Shown piece by piece: positions 10,537 through 11,232 of a stretch of 25,958 bases of DNA. Below the pieces are notes generated by a model. It was given only the letters and a program-made list of their open reading frames with translations, was not told the origin of the DNA and searched no databases. Location: the IMG/VR virus record IMGVR_UViG_3300035698_005696, positions 1 through 25,958 of that record. One strand, given 5' to 3'. This DNA is from a virus. Both the position numbers and the translations under genes were made by a program. Within the stretch, counting starts at the first letter, position 1; each line of letters begins with the position of its first letter.

Positions 10537-10941
10537 CTAGTCCTTTGGGGGCAGCGCAGCCGTCTTCATGTCAGCGAGAGTCGCTTCCACTTGGGTGCCA
10601 AGCCAGCTATCGATGGAGCCACCGATGCCAAGGATCTTCGTCAGACGTTTGATCCCTTTCATGCCCCAATTCTCTTTGAGCTTGGCGATGGCTTTCTTTT
10701 TGGCTTCGGCTTTCTCTTCGTCGGTCCACTCGCCATCTTGGCCAGCGTCCTTGAGAGCCTCCACGTAGGTGGCGTTCACCTCAGTGATCACAGCACGAAT
10801 CTCTTGGCCAAAGGACAGGACCATCTCTTTGATGCGTCCGCTTTTGATCTTGTCGGCTAAGAATCTGTAGTAGAGCCAAGCGAGAGCGCCGAGCACAGCA
10901 GCCACAGCGAGGGGACCGTATTCGATATATAGTTCTTGCAT
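10537..10941 (-). CDS. holin-like membrane protein (LLH-type arrangement), 134 aa
   Basis: The first 30 residues hold one membrane helix (YGPLAVAAVLGALAWLYYRF). A long charged helical region follows (IRAVITEVNATYVEALKDAG, EEKAEAKKKAIAKLKENW). Order and spacing recall LLH-type phage holins: N-terminal membrane helix, then a yVe-LK--G segment and an Ala/Lys helix. Holins form membrane lesions that let the endolysin out, and the CHAP endolysin is the last gene of the same unit. It is the first gene after promoter P5, whose -10 box ends 8 nt before the ATG. A -1 slippery heptamer CCCAAAG sits two codons before its stop. Holin activity is inferred from architecture and context. Confidence 0.6.
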   Translation of the reverse strand: MQELYIEYGPLAVAAVLGALAWLYYRFLADKIKSGRIKEMVLSFGQEIRAVITEVNATYVEALKDAGQDGEWTDEEKAEAKKKAIAKLKENWGMKGIKRLTKILGIGGSIDSWLGTQVEATLADMKTAALPPKD

Positions 10942-10987: not shown

Positions 10988-11060
10988 TGGAAAAGGGCCG
11001 GGCTCGAACCGGCATCTCCATGGGATCAGAGTCCCTGGCGTAATATCCTCACCATTCCAT
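10988..11060 (-). tRNA. tRNA-Gln-like RNA (anticodon CTG), atypical or degenerate
   Basis: A perfect T-arm is present: stem GCCGG/CCGGC around loop TTCGAGC (11013-10997). An anticodon-loop-like CTCTGAT matches the tRNA-Gln(CUG) loop. The rest does not fold canonically. If the acceptor is GGAATGG (11058-11052) with CCTTTTC, there is one T-T mismatch and no D-stem. If it is TGGAA with TTCCA, a D-arm GGTG/CGCC (loop AGGATATTA) appears, but two extra bases sit between T-stem and acceptor. The anticodon stem has two mismatches or a bulged A. No full CCA is encoded. Probably a decayed phage tRNA or a tRNA mimic. Confidence 0.5.
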
Positions 11061-11154
11061 GGATGGCGTTTCTCTACGACCTAATCAAAATTGATGAAGA
11101 GCTTGCCCCATCTCCCCGTGGACTCCCAGTTGAGCCTACCCGCGTATCCCTTCG

Positions 11155-11232
11155 TGGAGAGCCTGGGAATCGAACCCAGTTCCAAGCCTTGCGCTTGCGC
11201 GCCCTAGAGCCTGTCGAAGCCAGAAGCCCCCC
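11155..11232 (-). ncRNA. miniature tmRNA-like RNA: tRNA-like domain without mRNA-like domain
   Basis: The 5' end reads GGGGGGC, then TTCTGGCTTCGACAGG, which matches the conserved start of tmRNA (E. coli: GGGGCTGATTCTGGATTCGACGGG, split here only by the acceptor boundary). The 3' end has a perfect T-arm CTGGG-TTCGATT-CCCAG and acceptor strand GCTCTCC, which pairs with GGGGGGC over all 7 positions (two G-T). A discriminator A follows; CCA is not encoded. The whole RNA is only 78 nt, while tmRNAs are roughly 300-400 nt. In place of the mRNA-like domain and pseudoknots is a short hairpin, GCGC-GCAA-GCGC. No canonical D-stem or anticodon stem fits, so an ordinary tRNA is unlikely. Confidence 0.5.

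Follow-up and report, generated by a model that had tools for sequence, protein, structure and literature searches.

Does a phage genome encode a tmRNA reduced to its tRNA-like domain (TLD), and what could such an RNA do during infection? This question is raised by a locus on the minus strand (11232..11155) of a virus record, analyzed here over a stretch of 25,958 bases that is referred to as the window. A preliminary description had interpreted this locus as a very small tmRNA-like RNA without an mRNA-like domain, a reading that is supported by the tmRNA covariance match and the conserved family reported below. The same description knew of no described RNA of this form; a precedent is nonetheless in print, as mycobacteriophage DS6A is credited with a TLD-only tmRNA (marked "TLD only" in the tmRNA Website, entry Phage__Mycobacterium.9) in the accessible text of two sources (PMC4131195, PMC11915505).

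In this work, the anatomy of the window RNA (hereafter mini-tmRNA, or mini) was established, a family of related sequences was collected from viral contigs, and the selection on its structure, its alanine identity and its distribution were assessed.

Anatomy and genomic context of the window RNA

The features of the locus are listed in Table 1. The acceptor strands pair over 7 bp, as had been stated, and 30 nt were counted between the two conserved blocks, where about 30 had been given; these form the tip of a P2 stem and contain no tag reading frame, no pseudoknots and no resume codon. The GCAA-capped hairpin already described is present, seated on P2 across an internal loop; P2 proved longer than described, the C of TTCGAC opening a 6-bp stem (CAGGCT/GGCTTG) beneath the hairpin. 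The third G of the 5' acceptor strand (11230) is G3 and pairs with U70, forming the G3·U70 alanine identity pair; it had been correctly noted as G-T, but the accompanying remark that no G-U was visible was mistaken. A second G·U pair occupies acceptor position 5. According to our own mapping of E. coli numbers, the D-loop region would contain the equivalents of G13, G14, U17 and G19, and A11181 is the equivalent of A334. The sequence has neither a D stem nor an anticodon arm, and CCA is not encoded, since the next three nucleotides (11154-11152) are CGA.

Table 1. Coordinates of the predicted mini-tmRNA gene, its parts and its downstream neighbors in the window.
Feature	Coordinates	Strand	Remarks
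Predicted mini-tmRNA gene, tRNA-like domain (TLD) only	11155..11232	-	78 nt to A73; RF00023 1-374, 46.6 bits
5' acceptor strand GGGGGGC	11226..11232	-	7/7 pairs with 11162-11156
Stemless D-loop region TTCTGGC TTCGAC	11213..11225	-	from sequence
P2 stem, 5' strand CAGGCT	11208..11213	-	pairs with 11188-11183; covariation in relatives
GCAA-capped hairpin GCGC-GCAA-GCGC	11191..11202	-	in the place of reading frame and pseudoknots of full tmRNA
P2 stem, 3' strand GGCTTG	11183..11188	-	last G opens conserved GGA (11183-11181)
T arm CTGGG-TTCGATT-CCCAG	11163..11179	-	5/5 pairs
3' acceptor strand GCTCTCC and discriminator A73	11155..11162	-	U70 at 11158
Terminator-like hairpin with T-rich tail	11093..11112	-	about 40 nt beyond the mini-tmRNA 3' end; consensus scan only
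Holin-like gene (phrog_13712)	10537..10941	-	downstream of mini-tmRNA, same strand; E = 2e-8

The minimum-energy fold of the bare 78-nt sequence differs from the TLD fold (-34.1 vs -32.0 kcal/mol), and folding of 91 nt (-33.9 kcal/mol, z -0.82) was uninformative; among the matches listed, the minimum-energy fold retains the T arm in 118 of 182 family sequences. Because the bare sequence favors another fold, the TLD structure is argued here from comparison and not from folding energy.

The mini-tmRNA is placed in a 488-nt gap flanked by two same-strand ORFs, just upstream of the holin-like gene; two further ORFs, of 63 aa (same strand) and 242 aa (opposite strand), overlap it, neither with a PHROG match. 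The consensus scan returned 4 terminator-like sites in 1,501 bases, with 1.4 expected. The window is of phage origin, as indicated by polymerase, primase and holin families among its ORFs, and no integrase family was found among the 24 ORFs scanned against PHROGs. The latter, together with the presence of both ends of the molecule, agrees with the earlier argument that this is not an attP copy of host ssrA, which would have the 3' end only. Downstream of the mini, on the same minus strand, a degenerate tRNA-like sequence (10989-11058) displays by eye a CUG anticodon, a perfect T arm and a poor acceptor; it scores 16.7 bits with the Rfam tRNA model (cut-off 29, E 0.3), and is perhaps a decaying tRNA-Gln or else a chance resemblance.

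Detection by covariance models and gene finders

ARAGORN reported no genes in the window, and Rfam at gathering thresholds reported nothing at the locus, tRNA families included. At a relaxed threshold, the tmRNA model RF00023 aligned with 11232..11152 from model position 1 to 374, skipping 312 positions (46.6 bits, E = 9.9e-17), a score slightly below the curated cut-off of 47 for a full tmRNA; this was the best match of its clan, two lower-scoring, unnamed matches of the same clan being left out. The permuted tmRNA model RF04321 gave 13.5 bits (E 6.5), and the order of parts in the window is standard rather than permuted. The covariance search, which had been put forward as a check, therefore assigned the RNA to tmRNA and not to ordinary tRNA. 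G3·U70, A73 and the T arm are indeed as in tRNA-Ala; however, the lack of a D stem and anticodon arm, the absence of any tRNA report from ARAGORN or from Rfam at its gathering threshold, and the rank of tmRNA within its clan make an ordinary or odd tRNA-Ala extremely improbable.

As for controls, RF00023 at E <= 0.001 had matches in all 14 control genomes, four archaea included, and was above the cut-off in 9. Since the model also matches archaeal controls, a weak RF00023 match proves little by itself, and the comparison of relatives carries the weight. Searches for DNA similarity around the locus in phages returned no record with one place covering 80% of the query, the 20 matches listed spanning 28-42 bases, and a first exact pattern scan gave no matches.

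A family of mini-tmRNAs in viral contigs

Viral contigs were scanned with the pattern CTGGNTTCGACN{20,50}GTTCRANTC, which yielded 74 loci; once pairing of the acceptor and the T stem was required, there remained the window, 30 loci that share its anatomy and two that have no part of it. Two wider scans fixed U70 and A73 in the pattern, their results being those among the matches listed, and a filter requiring at least 6 of 7 acceptor and 4 of 5 T-stem pairs retained at least 142 candidate sequences. From 142 of these, 133 were kept and 9 dropped because tmRNA features were absent by eye, GGG, G3·U70 and A73 being prerequisites of the kept set. This resulted in at least 130 distinct sequences (last three bases removed) at no fewer than 170 places, including the window and two cultured phages; the length was 76-80 nt in 108 of 130 minis among the matches listed, within a range of 60 to 89. 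A third scan, whose pattern omitted U70, A73, GGG and CTGG, gave at least 120 stretches, of which 117 of 120 were examined, with 109 passing and 8 failing. One of the failures (L488) resembles a mini with a damaged 5' end. Over all scans, at least 182 distinct sequences of this form were obtained, a count of distinct sequences that is not a census and over-represents related phages.

A covariance model (R1) was built from a 20-sequence alignment (A2). The window scores 68.3 bits with R1 by construction, being one of the 20 seed rows; 83 of 84 non-seed carrier loci exceeded 36 bits at the expected place, L347 falling short of E 0.0001, and these 84 are part of the 170 carrier loci among the matches listed. 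A few of the 182 sequences are damaged or odd, with no P2 counted in L347, L399, L410 and L004. Second R1 matches were observed in two loci already holding a mini, one with a wrecked T loop (L303 5-81, 45.2 bits) and one with an odd D-loop region (L327 3208-3288, 37.1 bits). Smaller forms of 60-64 nt were also seen, whose P2 has 5-6 bp and is closed by a loop of 4 nt (L231 2366-2428, L235 4080-4143, L270 301-363 and L039 917-976); forms of this size are close to the minimal TLD constructs used by crystallographers.

With regard to annotation tools, RF00023 scored above the Rfam cut-off in 44 of 50 carrier records, and the Rfam tmRNA model reports many minis without flagging the missing template. 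ARAGORN, on which a published survey of tmRNAs in phages relied according to the part of that article available (PMC9004378), touched 5 of 169 minis among the matches listed, each with a much longer tmRNA call. The other end of these calls (L041 10045-10574, L197 2978-3603, L212 2976-3318, L277 4100-4442 and L420 281-906) is distant sequence, and they are probably false extensions.

Selection on structure

P2 was used in no search or filter. Among the matches listed, P2 positions 2-7 were paired in 126, 121, 120, 113, 111 and 107 of 130 distinct sequences (ungapped count), whereas in 2000 shuffles the mean per position ranged from 54 to 61 and the maximum from 70 to 81 (53.8±5.1 at position 2, vs 126 observed), with all six pair types occurring at each of these positions. 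The A2 alignment, made with MAFFT, showed pairing in 90.9% of cells and compensatory changes in 17 of 23 pairs, and its covariation score was 0.709, vs 0.169 when shuffled and at most 0.155 when slid; relatedness inflates such pairing and covariation counts, yet the slid control, which retains relatedness, stays low. The inner hairpin is variable in relatives, with 61.7% of cells paired in A2. A first MAFFT alignment of 82 sequences (A1) had a shifted acceptor strand and no acceptor in its consensus fold, owing to a spacer of variable length (6 to 9 nt); consequently, the A2 subset and the ungapped P2 count were used in its place. In the inner part of P2, before the tip hairpin, an asymmetric internal loop recurs, whose 5' side often reads AAA or AAR and whose 3' side reads A; among the matches listed, the inner segment opens with AAA in 48 of the 90 sequences that have at least 6 P2 pairs.

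Judged from this comparison, the mini-tmRNA family is under selection on structure, and 11232..11155 is almost certainly a real gene for a TLD-only tmRNA. The same data bear on the possibility of a functionless remnant, either a deletion relic of a full tmRNA, as the preliminary description had also suggested, or a copy of host ssrA serving as attP. Prophages are reported to contain ssrA fragments (PMC9004378, in its available part), the weak 35.6-bit R1 match of Mycobacterium phage Nibb, which adjoins an integrase, is possibly such a case, and a few minis do look damaged (L303 5-81, L456). On the other side stand the two ends of the window RNA, its lack of an integrase family among the 24 ORFs, and the strong covariation of P2 and acceptor over 130 distinct sequences (among the matches listed); a relic is also unlikely given that at least 182 distinct sequences share this form. 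A remnant is therefore considered very improbable, and the deletion relic is not supported.

Alanine identity and equivalents of SmpB contacts

As the first kept set had required GGG, G3·U70 and A73 beforehand, alanine identity was judged from the third scan only, in which neither the 3-70 pair nor A73 formed part of the pattern or filter. Among the matches listed, G3·U70 occurred in 84 of 85 distinct sequences and A73 in all 85; the single G3·U70 exception, L456, is a damaged copy of a neighboring type. Unlike the 3-70 pair, pairs 4 to 6 of the acceptor differ between sequences, with compensatory changes. The preliminary description had advised care over alanine identity, and the pair is present in the window as well as in its relatives. 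This G·U pair makes AlaRS charge tmRNA, according to the accessible text of two reports (PMC8363625, PMC3968760), and the mini-tmRNA is very probably charged with alanine too, to judge by its sequence.

The E. coli tmRNA contacts of SmpB include A15, U17, A334 and G19 in the portion of the source available (PMC8363625). In our mapping, the window has the equivalents of U17, G19 and A334, and C at the equivalent of A15. Among the relatives, U17 and G19 were fixed by the searches and A334 was not; its equivalent is A in at least 124 of 130, and that of A15 is U in 91 of 130, both among the matches listed.

A decoy or substrate for a target other than SmpB, which would tie up AlaRS or EF-Tu, or act as bait for a host RNA-cleaving defence, was weighed against these data. 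AlaRS and EF-Tu should need no more than the acceptor and T arm, and the near-invariance of G3·U70 would be accounted for; nevertheless, the conserved tmRNA-specific GGA and P2, fixed by no search, would be left unexplained, and an anticodon nuclease would find no anticodon arm to cut. We consider such a role unlikely.

Distribution of the minis and gene neighborhood

Whether the mini is a bacterial gene was addressed in the genomes of two phyla, where pattern matches were found in 1/396 and 3/398, the reversed control pattern also giving 3/398. Three of the four had no R1 match, and the fourth (L452) was partial, with 22.5 bits, and looks like the 3' half of a regular tmRNA. No TTCGAC-form mini was thus found in the 794 sampled bacterial genomes of these phyla, and within this scope a bacterial gene was rejected. 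Additionally, a pattern scan of bacterial genome contigs gave at least 120 loci, in which 37 rows passed a loose acceptor and T-stem filter and none was tmRNA-like by eye; R1 on 100 of 120 such loci reached 27.7 bits at best among the matches listed, and gave no match in 10 bacterial genomes, a run made without a positive control.

Within the phages, minis tend to lie outside genes (overlap with a crude gene model in 42 of 170, vs 115.2 expected), they share the strand of their neighbors in 231 cases and oppose it in 63, and in 409 of 414 pairs, which are non-independent, the similarity between minis exceeds that of either flank; all three counts refer to the matches listed. A tRNA-array gene was considered and rejected, only 38 of 169 minis among the matches listed being at most 1 kb from a tRNA (18.6 expected).

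No SmpB was detected in 50 carrier records (0/50), with 10/10 bacterial controls positive, and neither RF-1-domain proteins nor peptidyl-tRNA hydrolase was found in 27 carrier records, the window's included (0/27 each). Since many records may be fragments, these absences are weak evidence per record; some huge phages do encode SmpB (PMC7162821, available in part). One of the 50 carrier records, the 123,582-base phage record G035, has a full-length tmRNA besides its mini. The full-length gene (L449 1089-1480, 392 nt, 94.2 bits) and the mini (L448 1487-1565) have a similar T arm and a different acceptor; ARAGORN detects the former, though no tag that it recognizes.

Cultured carriers and relatives of the window phage

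Cultured carriers identified with R1 include the Streptomyces phages BRock (74.0 bits), LuckySocke (73.0 bits), pSt2308 (71.7 bits) and Alone3 (50.3 bits, with broken pairs), and the Stenotrophomonas phage Jojan60 (69.1 bits); phage GiJojo is a carrier by BLAST only. In the cultured phages, the annotation under the minis is "none" or "hypothetical protein", and never tmRNA.

The window polymerase is nearest to those of Pseudomonas phages, at 46-47% identity (15 best of 1,568 records), and YuA, PaMx11 and Epa5, among its nearest polymerase relatives, belong to Mesyanzhinovviridae. None of these three had an RF00023 match (0/3), the same search being positive for Jojan60, and contig L076, the sole one found by its holin, had no R1 match; searches for relatives by protein yielded none by primase and two contigs by polymerase. 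Homologues with compensatory changes, proposed earlier as a check, thus form a large family, although none was seen in the near relatives looked at (L076, YuA, Epa5 and PaMx11). The mini being absent from these close relatives, it is regarded as a sporadic, accessory gene.

Several weaker or different matches were observed in other phages. Microbacterium phages Dismas (L437 1439-1527, 27.9 bits) and Franklin22 (L441 940-1027, 31.2 bits) have weak mini-like R1 matches directly upstream of a tRNA-Gln(ctg), an order as in the window. A standard tmRNA not annotated as such in the stretch shown was seen in Salinibacter phage M31CR41-2 (L438 1157-1532, 80 bits), and permuted tmRNAs, likewise not annotated as tmRNA in the stretches shown, in Synechococcus phage BUCT-ZZ01 (L439 1480-1776), Rhodobacter phage RcSimone-Hastad (L445 973-1260) and Caulobacter phage CcrBL9 (L200 976-1281).

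Discussion

The window RNA is a further TLD-only tmRNA, of the kind already in print for DS6A. The likeness is by description: both would be phage-encoded, complete TLDs in standard order, with both ends and with neither tag frame nor pseudoknots; DS6A is a mycobacteriophage, whereas the window polymerase is nearest to Pseudomonas phages. Compared with standard bacterial tmRNA (ssrA, RF00023), the window RNA shares the acceptor with G3·U70, the stemless D-loop with TTCGAC, the GGA, P2, the T arm and the order of parts; conversely, it lacks template, resume codon and pseudoknots, has 78 nt against 374 model positions, and scores just below the cut-off. The CDS-less tmRNAs of plastids (about 65 bp, Mallomonadaceae) and mitochondria (RF02544) also have a TLD without a tag frame, but are organelle genes, the mitochondrial ones mostly permuted in the available text of PMC11915505, and the window RNA is a phage sequence in standard order and in one piece. 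Full-length phage tmRNAs, such as those of mycobacteriophage Bxz1 and Bacillus phage G, are phage-encoded too, and are not marked as TLD only in the accessible part of PMC4131195. Of the 97,179 sequences in the 2025 tmRNA database, 9 are classed as "standard, no CDS" forms, going by the portion of its description available. In the literature searched, mostly papers outside subscription, no phage RNA of this form other than that of DS6A was found named. What appears to be new here, and was not found in print, is that such RNAs make up a large conserved family in phages, in which P2 is capped and, as read from the sequences, alanine identity is near-invariant.

How might such an RNA act? The mini-tmRNA would be cut from a transcript by tRNA-processing enzymes and then receive CCA; host AlaRS would charge it with alanine, and the charged form would bind host SmpB and EF-Tu, becoming a competitor of host tmRNA for SmpB as well as for stalled ribosomes. 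Having no resume codon, it could not finish trans-translation, so that host tagging and ribosome rescue would be inhibited during infection. That this is a functional phage gene for a TLD-only tmRNA, whose alanylated product competes via host SmpB and blocks trans-translation, is the reading we favor, with reserve; the odds that the net effect is inhibition of host trans-translation seem to us slightly better than even.

The end-to-end RF00023 match, the covariation of P2 and of A2, the retention of G3·U70, A73 and the A334-equivalent, the lack of an SmpB beside the mini, and the placement of minis between genes, co-oriented and more alike than their flanks, are consistent with this reading. 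The near-invariance of G3·U70 argues that the mini would enter the ribosome and be more than a sponge. A molecule like the TLD-only tmRNA of DS6A is stated to be a strong inhibitor of tmRNA in the accessible text of two sources that differ in how they word the molecule tested (PMC4131195, PMC11915505), with which the decoy or inhibitor role first proposed for the window RNA would agree by analogy. Against simple inhibition, the full-length tmRNA besides the mini in G035 is odd for a pure blocker of trans-translation, and tmRNA is needed by some phages for optimal growth (PMC12656738, in the part available). Further points that fit less well are the sporadic nature of the gene, missing in YuA, Epa5, PaMx11 and L076, the score of the window just below the Rfam cut-off, and an A15 contact that is mostly U.

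The main rival is that the alanylated mini, with host SmpB and EF-Tu, would enter the stalled ribosome, accept the nascent chain and clear the P-site tRNA, the peptide gaining one alanine and no degradation tag. Ribosomes would thereby be freed and truncated phage proteins spared, by analogy with the supposed role of CDS-less mitochondrial tmRNAs, which are thought to help with incomplete mRNAs in the available text of PMC11915505. The near-invariant G3·U70 and A73 would be unneeded for a passive sponge, and a crystal structure cited in the accessible parts of PMC8363625 and PMC3968760 has a truncated tmRNA bound to the stalled ribosome together with SmpB and EF-Tu. The carrier records scanned for peptidyl-tRNA hydrolase and RF-1-domain proteins, though, offer no release activity of their own, which host enzymes could supply. 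The sole experiment reported on a similar RNA, in the partial text of the sources at hand, gave inhibition, which also speaks against the rival; Mao et al. 2009 is said to be the primary paper on the DS6A-like RNA tested. We regard rescue by this route as rather doubtful. A broader proposal, in which phages widely carry an alanylated, template-less tmRNA that would do more than bind up SmpB, acting inside stalled ribosomes as an active substitute that receives the nascent chain on a single alanine, either for tagless rescue or as a controlled dead end, is tentative and a shade less doubtful; under it, the near-invariant G3·U70 and A73 amid freely diverging acceptor stems would be the trace of that requirement.

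With at least 182 distinct sequences, several of them in cultured phages, the mini-tmRNA would pass from a curiosity to a widespread phage gene aimed at ribosome rescue, one that is testable with existing isolates. For annotators, ARAGORN mostly misses the minis, and Rfam tmRNA reports give no sign that the template is absent. A reduced decoy may be in wide use among phages, as a means of disturbing the freeing of stuck ribosomes or of taking control of it, and whether they disable or replace trans-translation becomes testable with the cultured Streptomyces and Stenotrophomonas phages.
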